In this document: positions 63 to 60,534 of the stretch, in pieces
Numbering within the stretch: position 1 is the first letter of the stretch
Layout: the number at the start of each line of letters is the position of its first letter
Assembly (NCBI GenBank): GCA_948567375.1
Contig: OX419761.1
Coordinates: forward strand, 8,160,243-8,224,242
Direction: 5' to 3'
Source of the DNA: Lunularia cruciata
Lineage: Eukaryota; Streptophyta; Marchantiopsida; Lunulariales; Lunulariaceae
DNA length: 64,000 nt
Program-made: the position numbers and the translations under genes
The notes under the pieces: generated by a model
What the model was told of the DNA's origin: nothing
Database searches by the model: none
What the model saw: the letters and a program-made list of their open reading frames with translations, nothing else

Positions 63-3000
63 TGTGAGGTAATCAGGTAAATAAAGTTTTTTCCCGCAGA
101 GATACATGTCAGAATTGGTCAAATACAAAGCAAAGTAACAATTTCAGTTCTTCTTGGTTGCGTCTTTAATCTCTCAGGTCAAAACCACACCCAAAAGAGA
201 GTAACAAGCACTGATTTGCAGTCTTGTCACAAATTAACACTCCATAATCACAACTCCTTCAAATCTTTCCAAACAATCTTGATTGTGATGATTCAAGCTC
301 TCCCAAAAATGGCACTTCACTGCAAAATGACTTTGCCTCAGAATTGTGTTCCCCCCCTCCACTGAAGGCACAACTTCCTCGATCAAAATTGCTTCACATC
401 AACCTCGCACTGCACTCACAAATGCAGAATACTACCAACACTACAATTCCTCTCAAATCTGTCAAGGCATTGCTTCGATTGCACTTCACTCAGGATCAAA
501 CACACAGAATGAAGATCGACGTTGCAGAATCCAACATCCAACAAGCACTCTGACTTGCACTTCAAAATTCTTCACACACTCACAAACACAATCACAAAGT
601 TGATACTTGGAATCAAGCTCAAGCAACGAGCACTGCTTCACAGCACTTTTCTTTATCTATTCTCAGAAATTATGAGCACTAAACAACATTATATTGCAAA
701 TGCCACTCTTAAATAGTGAACAAATCGATAGTTCTAACAATCATACCGTTCTACAACAACTTTTTTTAACCTGCAGATCCAAAATGACAATGCACCTCTT
801 CATATCTGCCTCTTCAAATCTCAAAACTGTTACTAGTCCAATCTGATGTCTACTTTGTCATCGGCTTTCAAACCTGAACCCAAAGTAAATTTACTTCCTA
901 CTACTTTTTCCTCGGGTCTTGTATCTTCTACCTCTTCTACCAATTCTAGCAATCCTCTTTCTTGATCTGAAATTGCACTAGTGGGTAACCCTTCTAAATC
1001 TTCTTCTCTCGACCCACTCTTCTCTAATGTCTCCATCGATAACTCCAAAGACATTTGTACTCCTATGTTATCTACCTTGTGTTTTGCTCTAACATCTTTC
1101 CGAAGCTTTTCTATCTCTATTTTCACTAAGTCTAATCTAATTGAAATGTTATCCTCTACCTCTAAAATCTTTCTGTCTACACAAGTTTTGAGACTAATTA
1201 ACAAGGCATTCATATCTGTATTCTTTGCTTGTCTTTGCCTCGTCTCCTGCACCAACAACTTCAACTCGTGCAGCCTCGTCTCTTCAATCCGAATGATGGC
1301 CTCTATACTTAAAATTGCATTCATTCGGAGGACTATCTCCTTCAATGGCTCCAATCTCATCTTTCTCTCACGTTCTTGATCTGCAAGCCAATCCTCTTGG
1401 TACATCGCCAACTCCGCCTTGAACTCGGCTTTCACCGACTCCTTCTCCTTCTCCTTCTGGACAACTCTCTCCTCCTGATTACGAAGTAATTCTTGTAATC
1501 GGTCTTCTTCTCTATATCGTGCCGCCAACTCTTGTTGCCAAAGTTGCTTCTTCTCCTTGACACTCTCCATCATCCTATCGAGCTCTTGATCCTTTGCGGC
1601 TACTCTTGCCATAGCATGGATTACCTCTACTCTTGAATCAGCAAAGTGTTGCTTCAAGATCTCTTACTCAGCTACTTGTCTCTCCCTTGCTATGTCACTC
1701 TTCTTCACAAGATCCTCTTGATAATTTACTTCTCTCTTTAGGTCATCAATTACCTAACTTCTCACTACTGCCTCCGCTCGCAGTACTTCTCTTTCCTCCT
1801 CACCTTGGGTTAGACTCTTCTTCAACTCCAAGTTTTCTTCTTCTAATCTCAATAATACCTGCAAAACAGTCTTCACTTCCGGACATGTCAACTGCATTTC
1901 CTTCTTCTTGTGCTCCAACTTCACCAACAATGGGCACACAATCTCCCACAGGTACTCCACTCCATCACTAGCAACTACTTCAACCTGCGGAGTGATCTCC
2001 CTTCTTCCTTCTTGTTTGCCTGATACTCGCCTTTGTCTCTATAATCTTTGTATCGGAATCTATGCCTCACTTCCCGAGCTTTCACTCATGTCTTCTTTTG
2101 CTTTACTTGGCCCCACTTCACATGTCGCCTTACGTCTCAAGCAAACTCCTCTCTGTACTGCAATCTTCTTCTCTTCAGGCACAGTTACTTTGTCTTCCAA
2201 CTGTGTGTCGTCCTCGGCTTCAATTGCTGCCTAAACTTCTTCTTCTTCTTCTTCTTTAGCCACTAGCGCCGATGTCATTTCTCCTCCTTTGCTGTCGCTA
2301 CTCGTATCTCCACTCTGCAGCATTAGCTCAGGCTCTTCCTCGTGTTCCGAGTCTTCAGTCTTAAGCTTGGCATCACCTTCCAAGTGTTCATCCTCCGACT
2401 TGATCACCACCATACCTTGCCTCGGGTTGCCTCTCCGTGTCTTCCGAGGTTTCTTTGTGTCTTTGGCTTTGCCCTGCCGACTCCTCTTCTTTGTATTTGG
2501 GGTACTCACTGCAACCTCCATGTTCTTCCCTGTCTTTGTGTAGTAGTCGTCGGTGCTCCTGATTTGCAATATGTATTGTTGCTCCTTGACATTGACCTCC
2601 TTTTGCAAATCAGGATGGAAGTGCGACACCATCTGAATCCGCTCCACCGAGTTCAGCAAATTTAGCCCGAGGTAGAAATGTGCTGCAAATGGCACGATAT
2701 AGTGTGGAGGCAATTTATCCCGCAAATTCCACACCATCTGCCTCGTTCTCCCGTGGAAACACCTCGCCCAATTGATCGGTTCTCTTGCAAATAGCTTGTG
2801 AAAGAACACCGTTTGGTGTTTCATCACATAAGTGGTTCTCTCCGGCTTCAGGATGGCCATCAGTGCACTCACAATTCCTCTCTTCATAGGGTCTTTGTAG
2901 CTCTCAACTTTGTACCCATTCTTTGTCTGCTTTGACGAGAATGCATCTCTCACTTCTTGGGTTTCTTGAGCTATCTCTCCCTTCCCCAAGAACGTGACTC

Positions 3001-3822
3001 CTTGCTCCGAGCCTGCTTCCTTCCCGAGTACAAGTCTCCAATCCGACTTGGTCCAGCGAGCCAGATTTTCTCTCTTCCCTTCTTCCTTGGGTCCATCAAG
3101 ACACTTGCTCTCAAAGATTTTTGTCATGAAACCTAGAAAGCTCACATTCCAATTCCATGCCAAAAAAGTGATCCAAAGTCGGCTCAAGATTTAGATCCTA
3201 GCGATTACATCTAACCTCCGAATCGCATGATTTTTCATTGCAAATTCAAAGTTCTTCTTTCCTCCTCCCATCTCTTCTGCCTTCTCACTATCTCTTGATT
3301 TCACTCTCACAACTTCTCCCTTATGCACCAACACGATTCTAACTCTATTTCCCTTCCCACGATCACCTGCAAGACGACTTCTCAACGACAAAGGAAAATT
3401 ACTCGACATTTTGTCATTGTGAGTTTGATTTTTATGGAGTTGCGCTTCTTTGTCTTTCTTCACTTTGAGTTTCTAACGAGAAATCACACCTCTTCCATGC
3501 ACCTATCACTGTCAATCAACCTTCGCGCGTATGGGCTGCCGGTTTTTGAACGGTCCCTTCTTGAACTTCTTGCCCCGACAAAGGGTTGTTAGACTGTCTT
3601 TGCCTCGAGTTGAGCTCCCCCCGATATGAAGACATTTTACTTTGGGTTGTATGTTGACAGGGCATTTCCGAGTACTTTGCCTTATGACCCGAAGTCACTT
3701 TACTTTGGATTTCATCCCAAAGACTCTCTTTTTTTCCTTCTTCGGCCATACAAGCGCAATCCAACTTCTCTATACACTTCTTCTTCTTTATTTTGAAAAA
3801 AACAAAAAATGTGGGCACCACA
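63..3822 (-). mobile_element. 3.8-kb TGTGG-family element, copy 1 (LTR-like, with internal coding region)
   Basis: This is a 3,760-bp insertion read on the minus strand. It starts TGTGGTGCCCACA (right end) and ends at a TGTGA motif on the plus strand (left end). The flanking 5-bp duplication CTCAT lies at 58-62 and 3,823-3,827. Reading along the minus strand there is a short leader and a coding region in two modules. The first is a globular module (about 2,230-3,460) with a basic/acidic tail. The second is a long charged coiled-coil module (about 830-2,000). A TATA-like box follows, then about 700 bp of non-coding end. The coding region is broken in a few places. No pair of LTRs is seen within it. 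It is inserted in the leader of gypsy A. Confidence 0.75.
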
Positions 3823-5666: not shown

Positions 5667-5894
5667 TTTACTATAGACTAAGATGTTCATTTTTTCTTTG
5701 GGTGAAAGGCTCTCTACCTTCTATGATACATCTTCAACTTATCATACTTAATCCTATCAAAGTGTCTTTCTCCTAACTCCTTGAGATCATAGGTGTAATT
5801 TCTCCACATCTTTTACATTATGAAAGGTCAAAAGTACTTAGGCAAAAACTTCTTTTGCACTCTCTTGAATCAAGTGGAATCAAACAACATTACT

Positions 5895-7716
5895 ATGGTA
5901 CACATATTTTTTGTTTTTGGTTTGTTTTGAGAGAACTATATCTTGAAGACAAATTAAAGTAGAGATGGCAATAGAGAAGAATTGTGCATTTTGATCCAAC
6001 CTACCCAAGGAAGTCAACTTTGTGTTAGAGTAAGAAGGACTTGGATTGGATTGGAAGGACTTGACACAAATGAAGGTTACTTTGAATCAAAATGAAGGTT
6101 GGAAGTCAAAATTACTACGGGGTCATATCTCAATGAAAAATGTTCAGATTTTCTATGTTGTATCTTGTTGGAAAAGTCTTCTTTAGGGCTTTCTATTGCC
6201 ACCAAAATCATAAAGTTTAGAGGTTTGTAGTAGAAGTTACAAGCATTTAAAGTTTTTGGAGTAGATGCACTAGAGACTTTGGATATATATGACTTCAGGG
6301 CTAGAGACTTTGCCTCAAGACAAAGATGATCCAACCAAGGTAGTTAGACATCAGATGCAAGTGACTTTGGAGGTCTTGCTAGAGTTATTTGGAGAAGTTA
6401 GAGTAGGGAAAGAAGATAATGTTAGGATACACAAGACTTCAATTTTAGTCATGAATGAAGATATGATAGCATTAGAAGAGAAAATAGCAATATTGAATGA
6501 ACCCAAAGTGCAAGAAAGCTCAAAAGAGGAAAGCAAAGGACATGGATATGAACAATATTTTGATCTTTTTGAGGGATAATTGTAGATAGGAAGATGATAG
6601 AGGTACAAGACAATGCTTGTCTTAGATTAGATTTAGTTAAATTTGTGTTAGAGCAGATTTGGAGTAACATGACGGTAGGAGCCCGAGGTGCAATAAGAGA
6701 GTAGTCATGTAGTTGTCTTTGTAGGAGTTATCTGAGCAATTAAGAGTAATTGGGTTGGAAGATAAGAAGGTAGATAGAATACCTATGAGTTCAATTGCAG
6801 TTGAGACTGAATAGATTATATAAATGGAGGAAGAATTGGTAGTACAATAGAAGTCCAAAGTACAAGAGGCAAAGGAAGTTACATGGGTTTAGAAGAAGAA
6901 GTAAACATCAGATTGGATTCATAATTGATCTGAGATATGAATTGATGAATATGATATTTCATTGTTTATATATGAATCATATGGGTTGCTATTTTAGATC
7001 TGGAGATTGTTAGGAAATGGTATTTTTCTTAGTAATTATTGAAGTGCTCTACCTATTTAAAGGAAGAATTTGTAGTATATTGTTGTTTAGTATTTATATT
7101 TTTGAAGTTGAGTAAAGCAAAGTGCTATAACTCACTACTTGTTGTTTAGCTTAATTCTAAGTATCAATCTTGTGTGTGTGTTTGTGAGTGTTTGGAGAAT
7201 TTTGAAGTGCAAGTTAGTGAGATTGTTGGATCTTAGATTCCATAGTGCTGATTTCATTCTATGTGTTTGATCTTGAGTGGATAGCAATCAAAGCAATGCC
7301 TTGAAAAATTTGAGAGAAATTGTATTATTGGTAGTATTCTACATTGGTGAGCACAATATGGGGTTTGATAAGAAGCAATTTTGATTAAGGAAGTTGTGCC
7401 TTCAATGGAGGGGTGGAACACAATCCTGAGGTGAATTTTTTGTAGTGAAATAGCTTTCTTTGGAAGAATCTGAATCATCACAATCAAGTTTGTTTGGAAA
7501 GAATTGGTGTATTGTGATTATGAGTGTTAATTTTTTATGAGACAACAAATCAATGCTTGTTTCTCTCTTTTGGATGTGGTTTCTACCTGAGAGACAAAAA
7601 GGAAGAACTGAAGTGTTACTATTTACTTTGTATTTGACCATTTCTGACTTGTATCTCTATGGGAACAGACTTTACTTCTTGATTATAGAAAAAGTGATAT
7701 TTGTCTAGTTGTCATA
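5895..7716 (+). mobile_element. Short (1.8 kb) relative of the TGTGG family, copy 5
   Basis: A 1,822-bp insertion flanked by the 5-bp duplication ATTAC (5,890-5,894 and 7,717-7,721), set in the integrase-side end of gypsy B. Its last 700 bp (from the TGTTAGGAAATGG motif near 7,010) match the ends of the 3.8-kb copies, including the TATTTAAA-type box near 7,058. Its start also matches the family (GGTAC near the edge, then a T-rich run). The middle (about 6,080-6,920) is much shorter than in the others and shows only a small charged open stretch near 6,289-6,579 that I could not match to the long coiled coil. It looks like a shorter subfamily or an internally reduced copy. Confidence 0.7.
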
Positions 7717-13466: not shown

Positions 13467-16400
13467 TGTGACAACCCGGCAAATATCACTTTTGCGGTAA
13501 TTGGGTAAGTAAACTTTGTTCTTGCAGAGATACGAGTCAGAAATGTCCTAATACGAAGTCAAATAGTAACACTTGCAGTTCTTCCTGGTTGCATCTTTAA
13601 TCTCTCAGGTAGAAACCACACCCAGAAGGGAGTAACAAGCACTGACTCGCAATCTTGTCACAAATTAACACTCTATAATCACAACTCCATCAAATCTTTC
13701 CAAACAATCTTGATTGTGATGATTCAAGCTTCATTGCAAAACGACTTTGCCTCAAAATTGTGTTCCACCCCTCTACTAAAGGCACAAATTCCTTGATCAA
13801 AATTGCTTCACATCAACCTCGCACTGCACTCACAAATGCAGAATACTACCAACACTACAATTCCTCTCAAATCTGTCAAGGCATTGCTTTGATTGCACTT
13901 CACTCAAGATCAAACACACAGAATGAAGATCCAGGCTATGGAATCCAACATCCAACAAGCACAATGACTTGCACTTCAAATTTCTCCACACACTCACAAA
14001 CATAGACACAAAGTTGATACTTGGAATCAAGCTTAAGCGACGAGCACTGCTTCACAGCACTTTGCTTTATCTATTCTCAGAAATAATGAGCATTGAACAA
14101 CATAAGACTGCAAATGCCACTCTTAAATTGTGAAGCAATAGATAGTTATCTTCCTAATGCACCTCTTCCTAATGACTCTACAAACCTACAGATCCAAAAT
14201 TACAATGCACCTCTTCATATCTACCTATTCAAATCTCAAATTGGTTTCTAATCCAATCCAATGTCTACTTCTTCCTCGGCTTTCAAACCCGATCCCAAAG
14301 TAACTGTACTTCCTACTACTCTGTCCTCGGGTTTCATAACTCCTACATCTTCTACTAGATCTAACAGTTCTCTTTCTTGATCTGAAATTTCACTAGTGGG
14401 TAATCTATCTAACTCCTTATCTGCCGACCCACTTATCTCTAATGTTTCTAATGGTAACTCCAAAGACATTTGCACTCCTACCTCATCTACTTTAGGTTTG
14501 GCTCTAACGTCTTTCCGAAGTTTATCTATCTCTAATTTTACTAGATCTAATCTAATCGCAATATTGTCTTTGACTTCCAATATCTTCCTATCTACACGAG
14601 TTCTGAGACTAATCAATAGCATGTTCAAATCGGTATCCTTTGCATGTCTCCTCCTCGTCTCCTACACCAACAACTTCAACTTGTGTAGCCTTGTTTCTTC
14701 AATCCAAATACTGGCCTCTGTACTCAACATCGCATTCATCTTGATTATGATCTCCTTCAATGGCTCCAATCTCATCTTCCTTTCACGCTCTCGATCTGCA
14801 AGCCAATCTTCTCTGTACATTGCCAACTCTACCTTGAACTCGGCTTTCACAATTTCCTTCTCCTTCTCCTTCTGCACAATCTTCTCCTCCTGATTACGAA
14901 GTAACTTTTGTAATCTCTCTTCTTCTCTATATCGTACTGTCAACTCTTGCTGCCACAGTTGCTTCTTTTCTTCTACACTCTCCATCACTCTATTGAGTTC
15001 TTGTTCCTTTGCTGCTACCCTTGCTATAACATGGATGATTTCTAGTCTTGAATCATCAAACTGCTGCTTCAAGATTTTGTACTCTACTACTTGTCTTTCC
15101 CTTGCTAGGTCACTCTTCTTCACAAGTTCTTCCCAATACCTTGCTTCTCTCTTCAAGTCCTCAATAACTTGATTCTGTATTACTGCCTCCCCTCGCAGTA
15201 CTTCTCTTTCCTCCTCACCTCGGGTTATACTCTTCTTCAACTCTGAGTTCTCTTCTTCCAATCTTGCCAAAACCTGCAACACAGTCTTCATCTCCGGACA
15301 TGTTGACTGCATCTCCTTCTTCTTGTGCTCCAACTTCACCAACAATGGGCACACAATTTCTCATAGGTACTCCACTCCATCACATGCAACTACTTCCCTC
15401 TATGTAGAAATCTCCTCCCTTACCTCTTCTTCTCCCAATACTCGCCTTCTTCTCTGCAATCTTCATATCGGAATAGACGCTTCACTTCCCGAGCTAGCAT
15501 TTGCTTCTTCCTTTGCCTTACTTGGACCCGCTTCACACTTTGCCTTGCATCTCAACCAAACTCCTCTCTGAATTGTGAACTTCTTCTCCTCTGGCTCGGG
15601 TATCTTGTCCTCCAACTTTGCATTATGTTCTTCTTTGAGCTCCGAACTTCTTATTCTTCTTCTTTTGCAATAGGCACCGATGTCATCTCTCCACCTTCAT
15701 CACTATCGCTACTTGTATCTCCACTTTGCAGCATGAGCTCCGGTTCCTCCTTGTGTTTCGAGTCTTTGGACTTGCACTTGGCTTTGCCTTCCGAGTCTTC
15801 GTCTTTTAACGCGATCACCACCATGCCTCTCCTCGGGTTTCCTCTTTTGGTCTTCCGAGGTCTTGTCTTATCTTTGGCTTCTCCTTGCCGACTCCGCTTC
15901 CTTGACTTTGGAGTACTTACCTCTATCTCCACGCTCTTGCTTGTCTTCACATAGTACTCATCCGTGCTTTGGATTTGAATAATGTATTGCTGCTACTTCG
16001 CGTTGACCTCTCTTCTCAAGTCAGGATGGAAGTGAGACACCATTTTGTTGCGCTCTGCCAAATTGAGCAAATTCAACCCAAGGTAGAAATGTGCTGCAAA
16101 TGGCATGATGTACTGTGGAGGCAACTTATCCCGCAAATTCCACACCATTTGTCTCGTCCTCCCATGAAAGCACCTTGCCCAATTGATAGGTTCTCCTAAA
16201 AATATCTTATGGAAGAATACCGCTTGGTGTTTCATCACATAAGTCGTTCTCTCTGGCTTTAGGATTGCCATGAGAGCACTCACAATCCCTCTCTTCACTA
16301 GATCTTTGTAACTCTCAACCTTATACCCATTCTTTGTTCTCTTCAAAGAGAAAGCATCCCTCACTTCTTGGGTTTCTTTGGCTACTTCTTCCTTCTCCAA

Positions 16401-17050
16401 GAATGTGGCACCCTGCTCCGTGCCTGCCTCTCTGCCGAGCACCAATCTCCAATCCGACTCTGTCCAGCGAGCCGGATTTCCTCTCTTCCCACTTCCTCGG
16501 GGCCATCAAGACACTTACTCTTGATTATCTCGGTCATGAAACTTGGAAAACTCACATTCCAGTTCCATGCCAAGAATGTGATCCGAAGTTGGCTCAAGAC
16601 TTTGATTCTTGCGATCACATCTACCCTCCAAATCGCATCATTTCTCACTACAAATTCAGAGCTCTTCTTTCCTCCTCCCATCTCTCCTACTTTCTCATTG
16701 TCTCTCGGTTTCACTCTCTCAAATTCCCCTCTACACACTAGCGCGTCTTCAACTCTACTTCCCTTCCCATGATCACCTATAGGATGACTTCTCAATGGCA
16801 AAGGAAAATTGCTCAACATTGCTTCATTGTTAGCCCAATTTTTATAGAGTCGCGCCTTCTTTGTCTCTCTTCAATTCAAGTTATCACACCTCTTACATGC
16901 GCCTATCACTGTCAATTGTACTTCATGCATATGGGCTACCGGTTTTGAATGGTCCCTTCTTGAATTTTTTGCCCCAAAGAAAGGTTGTTACACTGTCTTC
17001 ACCTTGGGTTGAGCTCCCCCCGATATGAAACAAAAAATGTGGGTACCACA
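13467..17050 (-). mobile_element. 3.8-kb TGTGG-family element, copy 2
   Basis: A 3,584-bp minus-strand insertion with TGTGGTACCCACA at its start (right side) and TGTGACAACC on the plus strand at its left end. The perfect 5-bp duplication AATAT lies at 13,462-13,466 and 17,051-17,055. It carries the same two-module coding region: a globular module about 15,650-16,820 and a coiled coil about 14,250-15,354. A TATA-like box and non-coding end follow (down to 13,467). It has several breaks in the coding region. It sits in the leader of gypsy B, within roughly 70 bp of the site used by copy 1 in gypsy A. Confidence 0.78.
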
Positions 17051-18254: not shown

Positions 18255-21200
18255 GCCCATGTAGGAGGATGAGTTATCACGCCTTCCAAAATTGCATCAC
18301 ATGTAGGATGTGTAACCACACCATCAGCCACTATCACTTCATTATCTCAAACCAAGTCTAAGTCTGCTCTACACGTGTCATCTACAAACAATATGAATGC
18401 TTCCTCCAAGCAAGTTATCCACTCTCTCATGCCATAGCAAACACTATATCCCTATTGGCATGATGTGTAACTATCCTCTTTCTTCCATAAGGACACCATG
18501 TTATATGGACCGTTGTTACATCTAGTGTAGAACCACACTCACAAGTCAGTAACAAAGATGCAAATCGATGGACCAAACTTAGGCAAAACCTCATTGTTAT
18601 AGATAAAGTGGTTGATGTAAGTCAAAATTCCCTAATCCTTGGTCAAGCTAGGATCCAAGAGCATGTACTATTGCCAAAGAAAGAGCAAAGATGTGCTCTA
18701 GTGGCCCAAGGAATGGATGAGTCAACTAAGAGAGAATGTAGCATATGTTGATGTTGTTGCTCCATCAAGGAACACTGCAAACCTTTGTTTCAATTTGATG
18801 GTAGTGAAGTAAAGGATGGAATGTCCTCCCATGCCCTTGGAGATAGACCATGTCTTGTCCTCCATAATAACACTTGGAGAGGAAAAGATCCCTCCTCCAC
18901 CTTGGTCTCATAAGTCTCCAAAATTGGCCTATCAACAACCACAAAATGGGAGGAAAGTAGTGGTGCCAAGAGAGCCTAATTACTCAAAAAATGCTATAGG
19001 TGCTATCTCCACCATAGAAAATAGGCCTACCCCTTCGCACAAGATTGGTTGAGAAGTTTATTCATATGCTAAATCCCCAATCACACACTCAAATGTCCCT
19101 GGCTAATGATATCACCAAAGACTCTTATAATCCTCCAATCAAAAGCTCTCAAATGTGATAAGAAAGTCAAGGAAGAGGGAACCGTGCAAAGAAGGTAAGT
19201 TGGTCAAGGGGCAATACTAGAGGAGAGTATAACAAATGCCACCTATTGATCTTCTAGTAGAGGAAGGTCATCTACATGGAGAACATCCTCTATGAGAGCA
19301 ATGTCTAAGAAGCATGTGACAAAGTCCTTGGATCCTATTGGCACTCCAAGAATACATAGTCCATCTATAGATGTGAGCTCTAAAATGAGCCATGGCAAAC
19401 AAAGGTCCACCTAAAGGATCTTCATGTCATGTACCAACAATTGATTCCAAGATGATGACTTGTGGTACCCACAATTTTTGTTTTTTTTTTGAAATTTGGA
19501 AGAAGTGTATAGAGAAGTCGAATTGCACCTATATGGCTGAAAAAGGCAAAGAAAAGTGTCCTTGGGATGAATCCCAAAGTAACGTGGCTTTGGGTCATAA
19601 GGCAAGATACTTTGAATTGCCTTGTCAACATACAACCCGAAGTAAGGAGTCTTCATGTTGGGAGTGCTCAACCCAAGGCGAGGACAATGTAACAAATTTC
19701 CTTTGGGGCAAGACATTCAAGAAGAGACCGTTCAAAAATGGTGGTCATACGCGTGAAGGACACTTGACAGTGATAGGAGCATGCAAGAGGTGTGATTTCT
19801 TGGTAGAAACTCAAATTGAAGAAAGACAAAGAAGGCACGACTTTATAAAAATTGAGCTAAAGACGAAGCGATGACAAGAAATTTTCCCTTGCTGTTAAGA
19901 AGTCGTCCTGCAGGAGATCATGGGAAGGGAAGTAGAGTTGAAGATGCACTGGTGTGTAGAGAAGAATTCAAGAGAGTTAATCCGAGAATCAGTAGGAAGA
20001 ATAGTCCCCAGTCCAAAGTAGAAGAGAGAAAGATGGTAGGAGGGAAGAAGAATTCTGAATTTTCAGTGAGAAATCATGCGATTCGGAGGTTAGATGTGAT
20101 TGCAAGAATTGAAGTCTTGAGCAAGCTTTGGATTACATTCTTGGCATGGAACTGGAATGTTAGCTTTCTAGGGTTCATGATTGAGACCATCAAGAGTAAG
20201 TGTCTTGATGGTCCCAAGGAAGAAGGGAAGAGAGGTAATCCGGCTCGCTGGACAGAGTCGGACTTGAGGTTAGTACTCAGAAGAGAAGTAGGCATGGAGC
20301 ATGGTGCCACATTCTTGGGGAAGGGTGAAGTAGCAGAAGAAACCTAGGAGGTGAGAGATGCTTTATCTTCAAAGCGCACGAAGAATGTTACAAAGTAGAG
20401 AGCTATATGGATCTTGTCAAGAGAGGGATCATGAGTGCTCTAATGGTAATCTTAAATCCGGAGAGAATGACTTATGTGATGAAGCACCAAGCGGTGTTCT
20501 TCCATAAGATATTTGCAGGAGAGCCAATTAATTAGGCGAAGTGTTTTCATGGGAGAACGAGACAGATGGTGTGGAATTTGCAAGATAAGTCACCTCCACA
20601 TTACATTGTGCCGTTTGCAGCCCATTTCTATCTGGAGGTGAACTTGCTCAATGTAGCAGAGCACAATAGGATGGTGTCGCATTTCCATCCCAACTTAAGA
20701 AGAGATGTTGACGCGGAGGAGCAGCAATAGATTCTTCAGATCAGAAGTAGTGATGAGTACTACGTGCAGACGGGGAAGAGTGTGCAATTGGAAGTGAGTA
20801 CTCCAAAGTCTAAGAAGAGGAGTCGGCAAGGAGAAGAAGAAGAAGAAGTCAAGAAAGCAAGACCTCGGAAGGCTAGAAGGGTAAACCTGAGGAAAGGAAT
20901 GGTGGTAATCACGTTGTCAGAGGAAGAATTGGAAGGCAAAGTCGAGTGCAAGTCCAAAGACTTGGAAAGAGATGAAGAACCCAAGTTCACATTGCAGAGT
21001 GGAGACACAAGGAGTGATAGTGACGATGGAAGGGAGATGACATTGGTACCTGAGGAAGAGGAAGTCAAGATGGAGATGGAGGAGAAAGGTAACTCAAAAT
21101 TGGAAGACGAAGTGCCAGAGCAAGAGGAGAAGAGAGTTACCATTCAAAGAGGAGTTCGTTCCAAATGAAAGGCAAAGTGTGGAGCAGGGCCAAGTAAGGT

Positions 21201-24200
21201 AAGAGAAGGGGAGGATGAAAGTTTGGGGAGCAAAGCATCCATTCCTATAAGGCGACTATGGCTTAGAAGGCAAGTGTCGAGTGAGGAAGAGGTGAAGATG
21301 GAGATCGCTTTGCAAGTCGAGGTAAATCCGAGTGAAGGAATAAAGTACCTATGGGAGGTTGTAAGCCTATTATTAGTAAAGTTAGAGCACATGAAGAAGG
21401 AGATGCAGTCAAAGTGTCCGGAGGTGAAAATTGTGTTGCAGGTGTTAGCAAGATTCGAAGAAGAAAACTTGGAATTAAAGAAGAGTATAATCCGAGGTGA
21501 GGAGGAAAGGGAAGTACTACGAGTAGATGCAGTAGTACAGAATCAAGTGATTGAGAACTTGAGGAGAGAAGCAAGGAATAGGGAGGAACTAATAGAGCAG
21601 AACGTCATAGCAAGGGAAAGACAAATAGCTGAGTATGAAATCTTGAAGCAGCAATTTGCTGATTCGAGACTAGAAATTATCCATGCTATGGCAAGAGTAG
21701 CAGAGAAGGAGCAAGAGCTCGATAGGGTGATAGAGAGTATAGAGGAGAAGAAGCAACTGTGGCAATGAGAGTTGATAGTGAGATATAGAGAGGAAGAAAG
21801 GTTGAGAGAGTTACTTTGCAATCAAGAGGAAAAGATTGTGCAGAAAGAGAAGGAGGAGGAAGCTGTGAAAGCCAAGTTTGAAGCAAAATTGGCAATGTAC
21901 AGAGAAGACTGGCTTGCAGATTGAGAACTGGAGAGAAAAATGAGATTGGAGCCATTAAAGAAGATTGTGATCAAGATGAATGCAATGCTAAGTACAGAGG
22001 CTAGTGTGCGCATTGAAGAAACAAGACTGCACAAGTTGAAGTTGTTGGTGCAGGAGACAAGGAGGAGAAATGCAAAGGACAAAGACTTGAATGCCTTACC
22101 TATCAATCTAAGAACTTGTGTAGATAGAAAGATATCAGAGGTAGAAGACAATATCACAATCAGATTAGACTTAGTCAAATTAGAGATAGATAAACTTTGG
22201 AAGGATGTCAGAGCAAACCCAAAGTAGATAACAAAGAAGTGCAGATGTCTTTGAAGTTACCATTGGAGACATTGGAGAAGAGTGGGTCGGAAGATAAGGA
22301 GTTAGATAGATTACCCACTAGTGGAATTGCAGATCAGGAAAGAGAACTGTTAGATTTGGTAGAGGAATTAGGAGTTGTGAAACCCAAGGATAGAGTAGTA
22401 GTGAGTGAAGTTACTTCGGGTTCAGGTTTGAAAGCCGAGGAATAAGTAGACATCGGATCAGATTAGAAAAAAAATTGAGATTTGAAGAGGCAGATATGAA
22501 GAGGTGCATTGTCATTTTGGATCTACAGGTTTGTAGAGTTGTTAGGAAATGGTATTTTTGTTAGAACCATTGTTTGCTTCACTATTTAAGAGTGACATTT
22601 GTAATCATATGTTGTTTAATGCTCATAATTTTTGAGAATAGATAAAGCAAAGTGCTGTGAAGTAGTGCTCGTCGCTTGAGCTTGATTCCAAGTATCAACT
22701 TTGTGTCTATGTTTGTGAGTGTGTGGAGAAATTCAAAGTGCAAGTCAGTGTGTCTGTGGATGTTGGATTCCATAGCCTTGATCTTCATTCTGTATGTGTG
22801 ATCCTAAGTGAAGTGCAATTGGAGTAATGCGTTGATAGATCTGAGAGGAATTGTAGTGTTGGTAGCATTCTATATCTGTGAGTGCAATGCAAAGTTGATG
22901 TGAAGCAATTTTGATCAAGGAAGTTGTGCCTTCAGTGGAGGGGTAGAACACACTTTTGAGGCAAGCTCATTTTGCAGTGAAGTGCCATTTTTGGGAGAGC
23001 TTGAATCATCACAATCAAGATTGTTTGGAAAGATTTGATGGAGTTGTGATTAAGAAGTGTAATTCGTGAGAAGACTGCAAATCAATGCTTGTTACTCTCT
23101 TCTGGGTGTGGTTTCTACTTGAGAGATCAAAGATGCAACCAAGAAGAACTACATTGTGACATTTTACTTTGTATTTGGACATTTCTGATTGGTATCTCTA
23201 CGGGAACAAACTTTACTTACTTGATTACCGCAAAAGTGATATTTGCTAGGTTGTCACATGACTCCCTGCCATTACTACCCATGTTGCTAGTAAAGGGAAG
23301 CAAGAGAGCTATAGAATGCCTACACAAAGGAAATGAGACTCACAAAGGATCCACCAGCCTCCCTAAGCTCTCTAAAAGATAGATGCCCAAGAATTGCTAT
23401 TAAAAGCATTCATAACATCCACTTGTAGGACAATCCACTTTGTATGGATATCTAGGAGTGCTCTTATGCCTAAAGAAATAGCCTTGCAACCTCCTAATGT
23501 AGTTACTCCAAATTGATGTGGACTTAGGTGCTCTTGGAAGTGATATCAATACTAAAGGACAACGGTGCAACTAACCAAGCTCAAAAAGATCTCTCCAATA
23601 GTAGTTGTTCTAATGCACTCCATGCACTTCTCCATCACAAGAAGTTGACTAGCTCCTAACACTTGACTAATTGACATAGGAATATTTATCCTTGCTATTG
23701 TTGCAACCACTTTAAATAACTCAATAAATCAACTAGAAGGATTATATGCTTGATAGTAATCTCTAAGATACTTATATACCATTCCTAACAAGCCTCTTGA
23801 GAAGAGGTGAGAGGCAATGGACAACACTTGTGCAAAAAGTGACTTATCAAGACATAAAGATTGCTCAGCTTGATTATCTAAGACCTCTAATGGTACTCCC
23901 TCTCCTGCCATGGGATGTAGTGAGCATCAGGGAGAGATAGTCTCATCAAAGGGACTAGTCATAGACAAAGGGTGTAGTGCTTGTGTTGCTCTACGATACT
24001 TGTGTTGCTCCTACACCATTGTAATCAAGTGGACTCTATGGTATCCTATGGAAAAAATTTTCTCCTTAATGCAGCCCTACCCGACTCCTCCTATAAGGCA
24101 GCCCAATCTCCTTCTTGGAATTGACAAAATCTAACAGCCACTTTTCTATGCCTTGCAGGTCCCTCTAGCATAATGAAGACACAATTGAGGGATTAATAGG

Positions 24201-40865: not shown

Positions 40866-41014
40866 AGTCGACGGAAATGATAATCGAGCTGGAAAATCTT
40901 TCGAACTCTACTGTGATATGTAGTATTCAACACCAGGGCTTGCACCACGGAAGATGGAATAAACGCTCTGAAAGATATCGACTTCGAATTAAATTGAAGC
41001 TGATTGGTCTATTA

Positions 41015-46230: not shown

Positions 46231-46922
46231 TGTGAGCCGGCCTGTCTCTCACTCAGGATGAACCTCTGATGGCTATTATGGTAGCGCACCATGGACTAAG
46301 AAGGCAAGGAACCCCAACTCCATCATACTCCTCCAAGGCTAACACTCCAAGACTCAAGACATTGCTCACTAGAGAACTCAATGAGAGAGAGATAGTTGCA
46401 AATGAAAGGATGATGAGTACCTCCTCACTCCTTGTTTATATACTTGTGAAATAGTTACGTACCAAAGTTACTAATTACCGTAGTAACTCAAGTTACTAGA
46501 CTAAAAGTCAAGTAAAGTCAAAAAGTAGAAAGGAATATCCATTCACATGGGCATATTCCCCTAAGCATGTGGTCTTATCTTGACCCAACCACTAAAGCAA
46601 GGATTCCTTCACATGGGCTATCCTTGGACTAAAGAAGAATCCAAAACAAAAAGGCTTGCGGGCCCAAGAGTTCTCAACTCTTTCCCCAAAGCCAAACACC
46701 TAGGAATAATACCAAGTCAACACACTAAAATCCAAAATAGTGGTGCTCATCTTTTCTACTTCCTCTAAAGTAAGGTCCCATCTATCTTAGCTATGACTAA
46801 CTTAAGCTAACCATGACTAATATAGAACCATCCTTTATCTCTATATAAATAATATCTCTTAAGTACTTGTAATACCAAGCTAAATATCACAATACCACAC
46901 ACATGCACAAATGGGTGTTACA
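46231..46922 (-). repeat. 3' LTR of gypsy element C
   Basis: 692 bp, bounded TGTGAGCCGG...GGGTGTTACA on the plus strand (TGTAACACCC...CCGGCTCACA on the minus strand). A minus-strand TATATAAAC box lies near 46,434. Read by eye it is the same as the 5' LTR, base for base. Short open frames inside it are non-coding. Confidence 0.93.
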
Positions 46923-49900: not shown

Positions 49901-51797
49901 CCACACCTGAAGCTCCTTCTTCAGAATCTGATTCCCAATAATTAGAAGATGGGGTATCTGAATGTGAAGTGTTGGTGGTGTTAGTCACAGGAACAATGAC
50001 TCTATGGTTTGATGGCCCAATCCTCAAGTACCCTTTGTGCCATCGATCAGTTGTGCGTGCTGCTCTCAACCATGGCCTCCCAAGAAGTAAGTCATAGCTT
50101 GAATCCTTCAAGACTTGGAAAGTCATGAGATTTTGAACTCCCATAACTGAAACTACCACCTTATCCATCACCCCTACTGGTCGAACTTGTTGCTTGTTTG
50201 CCATGCTCACCACAAATGTTGAAGGTCTTGAGGGTATCATACCCAACTTCTTCATCAACCTTTCTGACATGGCATTCACTGCTGATCCTCCATCAACCAA
50301 TGCATCCTTGATGTTGTGACCATTCACTCTCACATCAATCTTGGAGGCATATTCACAAGCCTCCCATGGTGCTGGCTTGGCATCCACCACCCCCATTGAT
50401 ACTGGAACTTTTGCCTTCTTCTTCTTTTTGCTCCTTGTAGAACTCAAACCACCTCTAAGCTCCTTTCTCAAGGTAGGGTTCAAAGCAATTAATTGGCCCA
50501 CTGTGATGTTAGCCTTGTGACTACCAACATCCTCCAACACATTGTAGTTCCATTGTTGCTTTGAGATCAAGAAGTCCTCCATCCCCAACTTCTTCCTTGG
50601 AGTCTTTGTTGTTGATGGTGTTGAGGTGCGAGTGCTCCTAGTAGACATAGGAGTATCCTTGCTTGAAGTAAATCCTTGAGAAGAGTGAACATCCTCTGCA
50701 AAACGAGCTCTCTTCTTCTCTTGTGCCAAAAGCTCCAAATTAAGACCCTTGGAGTTTGAGCACTCTCCCTTCTCATACTTGCTCTCAACCACATCTATGG
50801 ATGCTATCCCCTTACCTTTGTTGGGATTAGGAGCCACTTGGGTTTCACTACCTCCCTCTTTCCCTCTATTGGCTCCCTCATAACCCCTTCCTCCATGGTA
50901 AGTGGAATTTGGGCAATTCCTTTGGATATGGCCTCTTCCCCCACAACCAAAACAATTTCTATCATTGAAATTGTTGGCTGGTTGGCCTCCTCTATATGGA
51001 TGGTTTCCATAACTCCTAGGCCCTCTCCCTACATTCTGATCCACCTCTCTCTTCTCCCATAGTTGCACCACATTGATCTTGAGATCCGCAAGTTGTTCTG
51101 TGATGGTTTGGAGTGGATCTTTTGGTGGAGGTGCAAGAATTGGAGCAACTACTACTTGTGGTGCAACCCTTGTCACCAAAGTATCAGAAGTTCCACCATA
51201 CTTGTAGCCTTGAGGAGGATGCACAACCTCCTTCACCACCAAATCACTCTCATCCCCTTCCAAACTCTCCTCCATACGAATTGCGATCTTGATAGCTTCA
51301 ACCTTGGAAGAAGGTTTCTCATATCTCACCTTGCTTCTAATTTGTGGTCTCAATCCTCCCACAAAATTCTTGGTGAGCATGGCCCCTATGCCAATCATTG
51401 TAGTCTCCACATCATCCCCACCCTTCCTCAACACTATGCGAAATCTGGACTCCAACTTTTCCACTCTTTCCACATAGACCCTCACTTTCTCTCCATCTCC
51501 TTGCTTGAGAAATGTAACCTCACTCATCAATCTCTCATAACTCTCATCAGGAAGAAAGTTCTCAATGAGTGCTGAAGTCAAAGTCTCCCAAGACTCCTCT
51601 TCCCCCTCTCTCCTCTCTCTCTTTTGGTATTCTGACTCATACCATGTAAGTGCTGCATCCTCAAAGAAATCTGGTAATAATGAGGCCCACTCATTCTTCC
51701 TCCTCTCATTGTTTCCTATGCAAGCTCTCTTGAAGTCTCTCACAAAGGCCTCCACATCTTCTCCATCCTTGCCAAAGAAAACCGGAAGTTTCCCCAT
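46971..51797 (-). CDS. Gag-pol polyprotein of gypsy element C (1,608 residues)
   Basis: A single open frame with gag and pol fused. The capsid-type gag region lies at about residues 15-130, and a CCHC zinc knuckle (CFGCGGRGHIQRNC) at 282-295. An acidic and Ser/Thr-rich linker follows. The aspartic protease region is about 487-585, and reverse transcriptase about 770-950 with the FIDD active-site motif at 891-894. RNase H is about 1036-1158. Integrase has a His/Cys zinc-binding N-terminal part (about 1250-1296) and a DDE core at D1322, D1382 and E1418. The protein ends about 50 bp before the 3' LTR, with no chromodomain. Domain order RT-RNase H-integrase is that of Ty3/Gypsy. The frame looks whole. 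The ancient element B carries the same layout. Confidence 0.93.
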   Translation of the reverse strand: MGKLPVFFGKDGEDVEAFVRDFKRACIGNNERRKNEWASLLPDFFEDAALTWYESEYQKRERREGEEESWETLTSALIENFLPDESYERLMSEVTFLKQGDGEKVRVYVERVEKLESRFRIVLRKGGDDVETTMIGIGAMLTKNFVGGLRPQIRSKVRYEKPSSKVEAIKIAIRMEESLEGDESDLVVKEVVHPPQGYKYGGTSDTLVTRVAPQVVVAPILAPPPKDPLQTITEQLADLKINVVQLWEKREVDQNVGRGPRSYGNHPYRGGQPANNFNDRNCFGCGGRGHIQRNCPNSTYHGGRGYEGANRGKEGGSETQVAPNPNKGKGIASIDVVESKYEKGECSNSKGLNLELLAQEKKRARFAEDVHSSQGFTSSKDTPMSTRSTRTSTPSTTKTPRKKLGMEDFLISKQQWNYNVLEDVGSHKANITVGQLIALNPTLRKELRGGLSSTRSKKKKKAKVPVSMGVVDAKPAPWEACEYASKIDVRVNGHNIKDALVDGGSAVNAMSERLMKKLGMIPSRPSTFVVSMANKQQVRPVGVMDKVVVSVMGVQNLMTFQVLKDSSYDLLLGRPWLRAARTTDRWHKGYLRIGPSNHRVIVPVTNTTNTSHSDTPSSNYWESDSEEGASGVDTSMEEETSTEEDESESDSDVYPLCAMDFAPKPEVLKDPDKSPLTLEEVERRLSTLKYGPNVTKEEKVRFEEIFRKFIHVFAFSYKDLKEVTLEEHKIEVESHARPIRQKQRRISPPISLVVKEEIDKLKEAGFIFEVENSEWVSPIVIVKKKNGKLRVCVDYKKLNAVTKKDYYPLPFIDEILEEVAGHERYSFGDGYSGYNQIKIAPEHQQLTTFTTPWGTYAFKVMPFGLCNAPATFQRFMNKVFEPFIGKFVRDFIDDFCVYGSKEEHFEHLIKVLQRLDEANASLNPEKCIFGCEEGLLLGHIISKDGIAVDLEKVRKISDLPFPSSLTKLRQFLGMVGYYRRFIFSFSNKAYALTIYMKKGVDYMVILEDKEALKAFEELKQSLVVAPILAKPDWSKPFILYTDASNVAIGCTLSQLDQDGHDHPIAYASRQMVSAEKNYSVTEREGLAVIFGLKKFRHYLIGGKATIVTDHKALKYIFNKPNVEGRLARWMILLSEYDYTIEDRPGKKHANADLLSRAYDHDGDEPVDDSFPDEELMTISVTQEVPMEYKEIVDFVTRGNYPEGMHARERKALAARSRPYTMVDDILFHQGADGLLRRAVGKEESILLIKEFHEGLVCGGHFAGKVTAFKILDAGYHWRGIFKDCLDYCKTCHVCQAFARKSTSTPPLRSIPLLGPFEKWGIDFVGPLNRTPRNNRYIVVVTDYLTKWVEARPLRDKNEDEVGRFLYERIITRFGCPLELVSDRGGEFTGSITTAMLRHFSITHRVTTSYKPNSNGLAERTNQTLCMMLAKDAEMEGAKHHWDKRIHAVLWEYRTTMKTSTGYSPFQLVYGIESTLPIHFDLPTFQSIHRRLKKAQGSDAEKSRKDQLMELEEARAVAMVRVEQAQRKQKESYDKRQGKKKVEPFKEGDWVMLFDSIRFKRVQKKFLPKYFGPFIVEKVWGNYTYDLKELGGRHFDRINHDKLKMYHRR

Positions 51798-53366: not shown

Positions 53367-54058
53367 TGTGAGCCGGCCTGTCTCTCACTCAGGATGAACC
53401 TCTGATGGCTATTATGGTAGCGCACCATGGACTAAGAAGGCAAGGAACCCCAACTCCATCATACTCCTCCAAGGCTAACACTCCAAGACTCAAGACATTG
53501 CTCACTAGAGAACTCAATGAGAGAGAGATAGTTGCAAATGAAAGGATGATGAGTACCTCCTCACTCCTTGTTTATATACTTGTGAAATAGTTACGTACCA
53601 AAGTTACTAATTACCGTAGTAACTCAAGTTACTAGACTAAAAGTCAAGTAAAGTCAAAAAGTAGAAAGGAATATCCATTCACATGGGCATATTCCCCTAA
53701 GCATGTGGTCTTATCTTGACCCAACCACTAAAGCAAGGATTCCTTCACATGGGCTATCCTTGGACTAAAGAAGAATCCAAAACAAAAAGGCTTGCGGGCC
53801 CAAGAGTTCTCAACTCTTTCCCCAAAGCCAAACACCTAGGAATAATACCAAGTCAACACACTAAAATCCAAAATAGTGGTGCTCATCTTTTCTACTTCCT
53901 CTAAAGTAAGGTCCCATCTATCTTAGCTATGACTAACTTAAGCTAACCATGACTAATATAGAACCATCCTTTATCTCTATATAAATAATATCTCTTAAGT
54001 ACTTGTAATACCAAGCTAAATATCACAATACCACACACATGCACAAATGGGTGTTACA
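53367..54058 (-). repeat. 5' LTR of gypsy element C
   Basis: 692 bp, same boundaries and same sequence by eye as the 3' LTR at 46,231-46,922. Followed at 54,059 by GTACG, the target site of LINE-2. Confidence 0.93.
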
Positions 54059-56767: not shown

Positions 56768-59700
56768 TATGGTGCCCACATTTTTTGTTTTTTTCAAAAT
56801 AAAGAAGAAGAAGTGTATAGAGAAGTCGGATTGTGCATGTATGGCCAAAGAAGGCAAAGAAAAGAGTCTTTAGGATGAAACCCAAAGTAAAGTGACTTTG
56901 GGTCATAAGGCAAAGTACTCAGAAATGCCTTGTCATCATACAACCCGAAGTAAAGTGTCTTCGTATCGGGGGGAGCTCAACCCAAGGCAAAGACAGTCTA
57001 ACAACTTTTCATTGGGGCAAGAAATTCAAGAAGGGACCGTTCAAAAGCCGATGGCCCATACGCGTGAAGGTTGATTGACAATGACAGGTGCATGCAGGAG
57101 GTGTGATTTCTTGGTAGAAACTCAAAGTGAAGAAAGACAAAGAAAGCGCAACTTTATAAAAATCAAACTCACAACGACAAAATGTCAAGTAATTTTCCTT
57201 CGCCGTTGAGAAGTCATCTTGTAGGTGATTGTGGGAAGGGAAATAGAGTTGGAATCGTGTTAGTGTGTAAAGAAGAAGTTGCGAGAGTGAAATTGAGAGA
57301 TAGTGAGAAGGCAGAAGAGATGGGAGGAGGAAAGAAGAACTTTGAATTTGCAGTGAGAAATCATGCAATTTGGAGGTTAGATATGATCACTAGGATCAAA
57401 GTCTTGAGCTGACTTTGGATCACTTTCTTGGCGTGGAACTGGAATGTGAGCTTTCCAGGTTTCATGACAGAAATCATCAAGAGCAAGCGTCTCAATGGAC
57501 CCGAGGAAGAAGGGAAGAGAGGAAATCCGGCTTGCTGGACAGAGTCGGATTGGAGACTCGTACTCAGGAAGGAAGCAGGCTTGGAGCAGGGGGCCACGTT
57601 CTTGGAGAAGGGAGAGATAGCGCAAGAGACTCAAGAGGTGAGAGATGCATTCTCATCAAAGTGGACAAAGAATGGGTACAAATTTGAGAGCTACAAAGAC
57701 CATGTGAAGAGAGGAATTGTGAGTGCGTTGATGGCCATTCTAAAGCCGGAGAGAACCACATATGTGATGAAACACCAAGTGGTGTTCTTTCACAAGTTAT
57801 TTGCAGGAGAACCGATTAATTGGGCAAGGTGTTTCCATGGGAGAACAAGGCAAATGGTGTGGAATCTATGGGATAAATTGCCTCCACACTACATCGTGCC
57901 GTTTGCAGCGCATTTCTACCTCGGGCTGAATTTGCTAAACTTGGCGGAGCAAACTCGGATGGTATCGCACTTCGATCTTGATTTCAGAAAGGAGATCGAT
58001 GTCGAGGAGCAGCAATACATCTTGCAAATTAGGAGCACCAATGACTACTACACAAAGATAGGGAAGAACATGGAGATCATAGTGAGTACCCCGAATACAA
58101 AGAAGAGAAGTTGGGAGGGCAAAGCCAAAGACATGAAGAAACCTTGGAAGACCAGGAGAGGCAACCCGAGGCGAGGTATGGTGGTGATCAAGTCGGAGGA
58201 TGAAGACTTGGAAGGTGATGCCGAGCTTAAGACTGAAGACTCGGAACACAAGGAGGAGCCCAAGCTAATGCTACAGAGTGGAGATACGAGTAGTGACAGC
58301 AATGAAGGAGGAGAAATGGTATCGGCGCCGGTGGCTGGAGAAGAAGAAGAAGAAGTGCAGGTAGAAATTGAAGCCGAGGACAACACACAATTGGAAGACA
58401 AAGTAATTGAGCCCGAAGAGAAGGCGTACTGCAGAGAGGAGTTTGCTCAAGACGTAAGGCAAAGTACAAAGCAGGTCCAAATACGGTGAAGGAAGAAGCA
58501 CCTGAAAGCTTGGGAAGTGAGGCGTCTATTCCGATACGATGACTATAGCAAAGAAGGCAAGTATCGGGAGAAGAAGAGTTAAAGAAGGAGATCACTCCAC
58601 TGGTTGAAGTAGTTGCCATTGATGGATTGGAGTACCTGCGAGAAGTTGTGTGCCCGTTGTTAGTAAAGCTAGAGTACAAGAAGAAGGAGATGCAGTCGAC
58701 TTGTCTAGAGGTGAAGACTATGTTGCAGGTATTAGCAAGACTAGAAGAAGAAAACTCGGAGTTGAAGGAGAGTATAACCCGAGGTGAGGAGGAAAGAGAA
58801 GTACTGCGAGCGGAGGTAGTAGTGAGAAGTCAGGTAATTGAAGACCTAAAGAGAGAAGTGCATTATCCAGAGGATCTTGTGAAGAAGAGTGACATAGCAA
58901 GGGAGAGACAAATAGCTGAGTACGAGATCTTGAAGTAGTAGTTTGCTGATTCAAGAGTAGAGGTTATCCATGCTATGGCAAGAGTAGCTGCAAAGGATCA
59001 AGAGCTCAATAGGGTGATGGAGAGTGTTGAGAAGAAGAAGCAACTTTGGCAATGAGAGTTGGCAACATGATATAGAGAAGAAGAAAGATTACAAGAGTTA
59101 CTTCGTAATCAAGAGGAGAGAGTTGTACAGAAGGAGAAGGAGAAGGAGACGGTGAAAGCCGAGTTCAAAGCAAAATGGGCAATGTATAGAGAGGATTGGC
59201 TTGTAGATCGAGAACGTGAAAGGAAGGTGAGATTGGAGCCATTGAAGGAGATTGTCCTCAGGATGAATGCAATGTTAAGTACAGAGGCCAGCATTTGGAT
59301 TGAAGAGACGAGGCTGCACAAGTTGAAGTTGTTGGTGCAAGAGATGAGGCAAAGATAGGCAAAAGACACGGATTTGAATGCCTTGTTAATTAGTCTCAGA
59401 ACTTGTGTAGACAAGAAGATCTTGGAGGTAGAAGATAACATTTTGATTAGATTAGGCTTAGTGAAAATAGAGATAGAAAAACTTCGGAAACATGTTAGAG
59501 CAAAACCCGAAGTAGATAACATAGGAGTGCAAATGTCTTTGGAATTACTGCTGGAGACATTAGAGAAGAGTGGGTCAGGAGATGAAGAATTAGATAGATT
59601 ACCCACTAGTGCAATTTCAGATTAGGAAAGAGAATTGCTGGATCTGGTAGAAGAAGTAGAAGATATGAAACCCAAGGACAGAGTAGTAGGAAGTAAATTT

Positions 59701-60534
59701 ACTTTGGGTTCGGGTTTGAAAGCTGATGACAAAGTAGACATCAGATTGGAGTAGTAAAAATTTTGAGATATGAAGAGGTGCATTGTCATTTTGGATCTAC
59801 AGGTTAGAAAAGTTGTTGTAGAACGGTATAGTTGTTAGAACTGTCGATTGATTCACTATTTAAGAGTGGCATTCGCACTCAAATGTTATTCAGTGCTCAT
59901 AAATTCTGAGAATAGATAAAGCAAAGTGTTGTGAAGCAGTGCTCATTGCTTGAGCTTGATTCCAAGTATCAACTTTGTGTCTACGTTTGTGAGTGTGTGA
60001 AGAAATTTGAAGTGCAAGTTAGTGTTTTTGTTGGATGTTGGATTTTGCAGCCTTGATCTTCATTCTGTGTGTTTGATCCTGAGTGATGTGCAATCGAAGC
60101 AATGCCTTGACAGATCTGAGAGGAATTGTAGTGTTGGTAGTATTTTGCATTTGTAAGTGTAGTGTGAAGTTGATGTGAAGCAATTTTGATCGAGGAAGTT
60201 GTGCCTTCAATGGAGGGGTAGAACACAATTTTGAGGCAAAGTCGTTTTGTAGTGAAGTGCCATTTTCAAGAGAGCCTGAATCATCACAATCAAGATTGTT
60301 TGGAAAGATTTGTTGGAGTTGTGATTAAGGAGTGTGAATTTGTGACAAGACTGCGAGTCAATGCTTGGTACTCTCTTCGGGGTGTGGTTTCTACCTGAGA
60401 GATTAAAGACACAACCAAGAAGAACTACATGTTACTGTTTGACTTTGTATTTGACCAATTCTGACTCGTTTCTCTGCGGGAACAAACTTTACTTACCTGA
60501 TTACCGCAAAAGTGATATTTGCCAGGTTGTCACA
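56768..60534 (+). mobile_element. 3.8-kb TGTGG-family element, copy 4
   Basis: A 3,767-bp plus-strand insertion with a GGTGCCCACATTTTTTG start and GCCAGGTTGTCACA end, flanked by the perfect 5-bp duplication AAAGC (56,763-56,767 and 60,535-60,539). The coding region runs from about 57,180 to 59,755. The globular module (57,428-58,489 is the longest open part, 353 codons) contains HGRTRQMVWNL and PFAAHFYLGLNLLN, then a basic segment and an acidic Glu-rich tail. The coiled-coil module follows (about 58,560-59,755). A TATTTAAGAG box lies near 59,860, and about 670 bp of non-coding end follow. It has several breaks. No repeat is shared between its own two ends, so no LTR pair lies within it. Confidence 0.8.

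Follow-up and report, generated by a model that had tools for sequence, protein, structure and literature searches.

A probable accessory gene within the long terminal repeats of a Ty3/gypsy element of Lunularia cruciata

The closest arrangement described is that of mouse mammary tumour virus (MMTV) and related endogenous betaretroviruses, where an accessory gene is located in the long terminal repeat (LTR). In the passages of PMC4667437 drawn on here LTRs are ordinarily non-coding, MMTV keeps most of its sag gene in the unique 3′ (U3) part of the LTR and has several sag promoters, one of them within U3, and most of the sag genes in mammalian genomes sit in solo LTRs. The present case concerns a plant, Lunularia cruciata, and a stretch of 64,000 nucleotides (assembly GCA_948567375.1, contig OX419761.1, positions 8,160,243 to 8,224,242 of the forward strand; ‘the window’), in which five insertions are very probably solo LTRs of a Ty3/gypsy family whose LTRs hold a selected gene, presumably accessory and in U3. 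Unlike MMTV, the element is of Ty3/gypsy type, no env was seen and a frame of about 811 codons lies entirely in the LTR; Pfam gave no superantigen match for it, no direct comparison with Sag having been made.

Among plant elements, those nearest in build are of the non-chromovirus Ty3/gypsy kind. Diaspora/Calypso and Ogre share the TG...CA ends and multi-kb LTRs (PMC1142308, PMC6317226, as far as the passages used extend). The parts of PMC1142308 used give Diaspora long LTRs, a tRNA-Asp primer and a primer-binding site (PBS) 5 bases after the LTR, and the likeness of Diaspora/Calypso lies in that primer and in a PBS a few bases past the LTR (5 in Diaspora, 6-7 here). An LTR-borne gene is not described in those portions of the two papers. 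Where plant elements have extra open reading frames (ORFs), the passages used of PMC7264820, PMC6317226 and PMC11963269 put them up- or downstream of gag-pol, in the internal region. Grande gene23, RIRE2 and Retand TRP28 resemble the present case in that a family keeps an extra protein, which in Grande is nuclear and has its own promoter, but theirs is antisense and between pol and the 3′ LTR, whereas the frame considered here is sense and inside both LTRs (PMC7264820, PMC11963269, same limit). Nor is it an aORF-3′/eORF-3′, a class placed between pol and the 3′ LTR, as it opens 351 bp inside the LTR. Among the papers listed by literature searches for an ORF inside a plant LTR, none is such a case as judged by title or start of abstract. 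Such ORFs could sit unremarked in the tables of a plant-element survey, whose passages are silent on excluding LTRs. With a selected gene in the LTR, thousands of solo LTRs usually dismissed as inert scars may be protein-coding loci.

The repeated unit and its parent element

All five insertions are confirmed. A perfect 5-bp target duplication flanks every one of them, against a chance expectation of about 9e-16 (Table 1). Their outlines needed small repairs. The flank of copy 1, given by the first-pass annotation as CTCAT, is indeed duplicated and becomes ATGAG when read on the other strand; the start of copy 2 moves from 5,895 to 5,894, its end at 7,716 standing. Common end types had been reported too, and in shared orientation the units do start with TGTGGTRCCCACA and end with GGTTGTCACA, except for decay in copies 1, 2 and 5: copies 2 and 5 start with TATGG, and copy 1 ends in CTCACA after what we read as a deletion of about 24 bp near that end. 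Copies 1, 3, 4 and 5 are 77-88% identical across nearly their full length, copy 4 being the most divergent among the aligned long copies, and good similarity of copy 2 to the others is confined to its last 0.7 kb or so.

For units with such ends and no LTR pair within, two explanations had been put forward: solo copies of a giant LTR with a gene in its U3, or a class of elements without LTRs mobilised by an integrase. The observation behind both was correct: a unit contains no pair since it is an LTR in its own right. The home genome (566 Mb) has 37 matches to chlorophyll-binding light-harvesting proteins, in keeping with a photosynthetic plant. A search of it with the last 501 bp of copy 5 returned 7,320 first-look candidates, of which 40 were scored and all were matches. 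The 20 loci of 10 kb then fetched were drawn from the top of this list after copy 5 itself and so are biased towards it. Twelve hold a complete long unit, flanked by a perfect 5-bp duplication in six cases and by one with a single mismatch in three; two of the twelve are followed by a PBS (L013, L020) and one (L021) is preceded by a polypurine tract. A short form occurs in five loci (four duplications perfect, one with one mismatch), and three have interrupted or partial copies, two of which run into a PBS (L011, L024). Solo-looking LTRs make up 14 of the 20.

At four of the 20 loci the LTR end runs straight into a common sequence with small differences, TGATTTTTGGTGCCGCTGCCGGGGATACAAATC in L013 and L024 and the same with few changes in L011 and L020. 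This sequence is a PBS. The host tRNA that it fits has the 3′ end GGGTTCGATCCCCGGCAGCGGCG (13 of 14 genome matches exact), and the one match given to ARAGORN was called tRNA-Asp(GTC). With CCA added, the complement is TGGCGCCGCTGCCGGGGAT. Of the four junctions, L020 is one G short of this complement and the other three agree with it in 18 of 19 bases. Genome-wide an exact 19-base match follows the LTR end 182 times, LTR-PBS junctions with up to 3 mismatches number 1,078, and junctions of the polypurine tract, GAGGGAGGGGGTA, with an LTR number 1,487 (the pattern covers both LTR forms); each of the three controls gave 0.

A complete element of about 13.8 kb could be assembled from two loci: L013 provides the 5′ LTR, of 3,784 bp, and L029 the gag-pol interior (6,192 bp) with the 3′ LTR, also of 3,784 bp. 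Identity between the two LTRs is 95.4%, transitions making up 148 of the 173 mismatches, and AGAAG borders each outer end. In this pair, the one read fully, the PBS after the first LTR and the polypurine tract before the second are where the first-pass annotation had thought to look for them. Spacings generalise the picture. On contig C1, with the PBS set being the 47 sites listed there with 0-1 mismatch, a same-strand PBS lies 5.97-6.16 kb from 11 of the 27 listed mismatch-free polypurine junctions (0.06 expected at random). The direct pairs of long copies that had been anticipated also exist: among the first 100 listed of 4,672 gene-start matches of the long form genome-wide there are 13 same-strand pairs 9.0-10.5 kb apart (0.12 expected at random) and 2 opposite-strand pairs, and 7 of the 13 are at 9.9-10.0 kb, where LTR plus interior predicts 9,976.

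What of the integrase-mobilised class without LTRs? That most copies are unpaired would favour it, as there are about 10,235 LTR right ends genome-wide against the junction counts just given. However, unpaired copies are the expected residue of solo-LTR formation, and the LTR pair with PBS, polypurine tract, gag-pol and single shared duplication, together with the recurrent distances near 6.1 kb and 9.95 kb, leave that alternative with next to no probability and refute it. About 1,078 of the right ends belong to 5′ LTRs and at most about 1,500 to 3′ LTRs, so that roughly three quarters are solo or broken, a share that is approximate because the patterns differ in length. Nor do the units look like a DNA transposon: no transposase was found in the Pfam scans, and inverted end bases are only a few. 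The evidence thus supports the giant-LTR explanation, with the window units as solo LTRs that remained when the two LTRs of a complete element recombined, and with the frame placed presumptively in U3.

As to lineage, separate stop-free pieces of three interiors match, in Pfam, gag (PF03732), CCHC knuckles, reverse transcriptase (RVT_1), RNase H and integrase. The integrase match is strong for the H2C2 zinc domain and weak for the core (rve E 0.0013, below its cut-off), and that for aspartic protease is weak (E 0.02, below cut-off). Gag followed by reverse transcriptase (RT), RNase H and integrase is the Ty3/gypsy order. The scanned pieces after integrase, around which frames are broken, have no chromodomain, and no second RNase H, a Tat feature, was seen in pieces that cover pol partly and with broken frames. 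Set beside the description of non-chromovirus plant gypsy elements in the available part of PMC6317226, the tRNA-Asp primer and absent chromodomain would suit the Athila/Tat side.

The frame inside the LTR

The first-pass annotation had described a coding region of two modules; it is instead a single reading frame of about 811 codons, free of stops in some copies outside the window. In L016, a solo LTR with the duplication GTAGT, a single frame stays open for 878 codons, LTR positions 351-2984. Seventeen LTRs were aligned, 4 of the window and 13 of the fetched loci, these 13 including both LTRs of one element. Averaged over pairs, they vary by 0.118, 0.095 and 0.230 at codon positions 1, 2 and 3; the difference between third and second positions, 0.136, compares with a maximum of 0.034 over 5,000 permutations. 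The signal sets in near position 552, at an ATG shared by all 17, and does not run past the stop codon; the coding unit is accordingly taken to be about 811 codons (sense, LTR positions 552-2984). In the same LTRs a comparable signal is absent from the 551 bp 5′ of the frame and the approximately 800 bp 3′ of it.

The ratio of non-synonymous to synonymous divergence (dN/dS; Nei-Gojobori) has a median of 0.183 over all 136 pairs (range 0.11-0.50). By segment, for pairs with synonymous divergence (dS) above 0.2, it is 0.104 in the N-terminal part (109 pairs), 0.242 in the linker (116), 0.145 in the coiled coil (127) and 0.365 in the tail (91). Shifted frames gave 0.85 and 1.05 and non-coding LTR gave 0.51 and 0.45, with RT-RNase H of four elements at 0.21-0.40. 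Neutrality is best gauged from the two LTRs of a single element, whose divergence dates only from insertion: this gives 0.43 for L013/L029 and 0.41 for L020 with the 3′ LTR in L030.

Several observations count against a selected gene. With neutral pairs at about 0.4 and non-coding LTR at 0.45-0.51, a value of 0.18 amounts to moderate, not extreme, constraint, and the C-terminal tail at 0.365 is near neutral. Stop-free copies are 3 of the 52 scored (L016 among them) out of 34,795 first-look candidates, and the gene is broken in all four long window copies. An additional ATG, 138 bp 5′ of the start and 27 bp past a promoter-like box, TATAAAAAT, is present in 17 of 17 and in frame in L016, with no coding signal behind it; the conservation of the box is itself unexceptional, 31 of 542 windows of the region being equal or better. 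With 2,114 left ends genome-wide, LTRs of the short form, which lack the gene, are frequent, so the gene is not needed in cis. Judged from the alignment, purifying selection on the frame is real and weaker than the raw figure implies.

Might the frame be just a passenger, an internal ORF that was captured or relocated, serves no function and is decaying? Stops in 49 of the 52 scored genome copies and the loss of the frame from the short LTR form would suit this, but against it stand a codon signal confined from ATG 552 to the stop with nothing comparable in its flanks, dN/dS of 0.10-0.18 where neutral is about 0.4 and RT-RNase H no lower, and constraint kept over pairs with dS of about 1, and we regard it as quite improbable.

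The selected gene may be older, or more often exchanged, than its carrier. In the same four elements (L013/L029, L030, L032, L034) its synonymous divergence is 0.31-0.69 versus 0.11-0.20 for RT-RNase H, 2-4 times more, and at four-fold sites 0.20-0.38 versus 0.09-0.18. A raised mutation rate in the gene was not seen in the 5′/3′ LTR pairs of single elements. The excess would fit LTR genes being exchanged between lineages, or gene lineages that have persisted for long while their backbone spread recently.

Expression, product and the gene-less form

The gene stands between two promoter-like boxes. TATAAAAAT precedes the ATG by 165 bp in 16 of 17 LTRs (189 bp in copy 4) and is exact in 14, and TATTTAAG, at about LTR position 3105, is about 120 bp 3′ of the stop and exact in 12. 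The first-pass annotation had rightly seen the latter before the non-coding end: it stands 650-680 bp before the end of copies 1, 4 and 5, and that of copy 3 has one substitution. TATTTAAG is presumed to be the genomic-RNA promoter, which would place the frame in U3, and TATAAAAAT is a candidate promoter of the gene. A frame in U3 would be copied to both LTRs at each replication and remain in every solo LTR. By analogy with sag, translation would be from an mRNA begun in the LTR at TATAAAAAT, or from the 3′ end of the genomic RNA. Should the second route be the only one, with the gene expressed just as the 3′-terminal ORF of full-length or spliced genomic RNA, solo LTRs would be silent. U3 is the 3′ end of a genomic RNA, and sag transcripts from the 5′ LTR are known (PMC4667437, in the part used); against this the conserved TATAAAAAT sits upstream of the ATG, and MMTV also has a promoter inside U3 (same source and limit). 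Expression from genomic RNA alone comes close to an even chance without reaching it.

The predicted protein has no Pfam family, the sole match up to E 10 being TOPRIM_C at 0.15, and it showed no match to Transposase_28 or the plant mobile domain. Its N-terminal part, for which no PDB relative was found by sequence, is helix-rich in an AlphaFold2 model of very low confidence (predicted local distance difference test 42.6, from a 3-row alignment). We read one basic segment as resembling a nuclear localisation signal. The linker is acidic, its net charge falling as low as -14 per 42 residues, and there is a long charged region in parts of which a simple Fourier score finds heptad periodicity. The weakest step in the scheme concerns the product: it would act in trans as an accessory protein of the element, probably in the nucleus, form oligomers via its coiled coil and regulate the family's expression or silencing. 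A virion or structural protein, second capsid-like or envelope-like, is an alternative: the helical N-terminal part and coiled coil (given the poor model) could be so viewed, and plant sense ORFs after pol are often labelled env-like in the part used of PMC7264820. It is nevertheless unlikely. Profile comparison (hhalign) of the N-terminal part with the element's own gag gave a probability of 0.02%, and with the window's other gag 0.47%, where the two gags find each other at 87%, and a gag origin was rejected; Pfam has no gag or envelope match for the LTR protein, whose highly charged linker and coil are unlike an envelope, though no transmembrane search was made.

A bolder version of the accessory-gene reading is that the gene has moved wholly into the LTR with its own promoter, making solo LTRs free-standing trans-acting genes, its lineages being older than, or more exchanged than, the pol that carries them. 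This we put forward tentatively, while leaning against it. If it is true, solo-LTR formation multiplies and spreads a regulator rather than killing an element, and the short-LTR derivatives, all without the gene and some without gag-pol, would exploit the LTR gene.

The short LTR form measures 1.9 kb. In the two copies compared, its final 1,046 bp or so match the long form at 88-89% and take in what remains of the gene's 3′ end. Its longest stop-free frame is 119 codons in 3 of 6 and 74-101 in the others, and codon periodicity of the long-form kind was not seen in it. Window copy 2 is a diverged relative, 67-69% identical over about 0.4 kb on the left and 74-79% on the right. Up to 93 short-form left ends come directly after a polypurine tract (some 3-mismatch sites look intermediate). 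With the PBS set here being 166 listed of the 1,078 junctions, 8 of the 93 have a same-strand upstream PBS within 15 kb (0.18 expected at random), at 521, 521, 526 and 528 bp and at 4.5, 6.1, 11.8 and 12.4 kb; none of the 27 C1 sites of the long form has a PBS within 3 kb of its polypurine tract. Gag-pol does not fit into about 0.5 kb of interior, and part of the short form is therefore likely, on PBS to polypurine spacing, to be a non-autonomous derivative moved in trans, one short-form-start site having the normal 6.1-kb spacing. Short-LTR relatives with so small an interior would depend on the long form in trans. Gene-bearing and gene-less, partly non-autonomous, forms in one genome are a natural experiment on an accessory protein, whose role is testable by comparing expression, silencing and spread of the two.

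Features of the window

Table 1. Positions of the LTR units and of other features (window coordinates unless a contig is given)
Feature	Position	Strand	Remarks
Copy 1, solo long-form LTR	63..3822	-	duplication ATGAG; gene 3271-833; TATTTAAG at about 715
Copy 2, solo LTR related to short form, 1,823 bp	5894..7716	+	duplication ATTAC; without the gene
Copy 3, solo long-form LTR	13467..17050	-	duplication ATATT; gene 16681-14248; nearly 200 bp missing near start
Copy 4, solo long-form LTR	19461..23258	+	duplication TGACT; gene 20033-22466
Copy 5, solo long-form LTR, 3,767 bp	56768..60534	+	duplication AAAGC/AAAGC; aligned with 16 other LTRs
TATAAAAAT box in copy 5, candidate promoter of LTR gene	57155..57163	+	165 bp 5′ of ATG
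LTR gene in copy 5, ATG to stop	57320..59754	+	by alignment to L016; broken; stop-free piece 57413-58486
TATTTAAG box in copy 5, presumed genomic-RNA promoter	59857..59864	+	U3 would lie upstream, the repeat and unique 5′ regions (R-U5) downstream
Short-LTR elements	C6:55039620, C7:44698450, C6:23605243, C2:66607312		PBS to polypurine tract 521-528 bp
Different gypsy element	46971-51797	-	unbroken 1,608-amino-acid gag-pol frame
Frame of 199 amino acids	26308-26907	+	weak phosphatase match

The window's other gypsy element was considered as a home for the units and rejected: it is of a different family, with a nucleotide match of 159 bp and pol 37-53% identical in protein. It has 692-bp direct repeats at 46231-46922 and 53367-54058 that are 100% identical, and is probably a recent insertion, given these repeats and its unbroken frame. 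An older relative, at about 3,950-18,255, is interrupted by copies 2 and 3. Short head-to-tail duplications are present at 33756-34076 (about 160 bp, 91%) and 40438-40867 (215 bp, 86%). The phosphatase match of the 199-amino-acid frame has E 0.025, below cut-off, and the frame is possibly part of a host gene.

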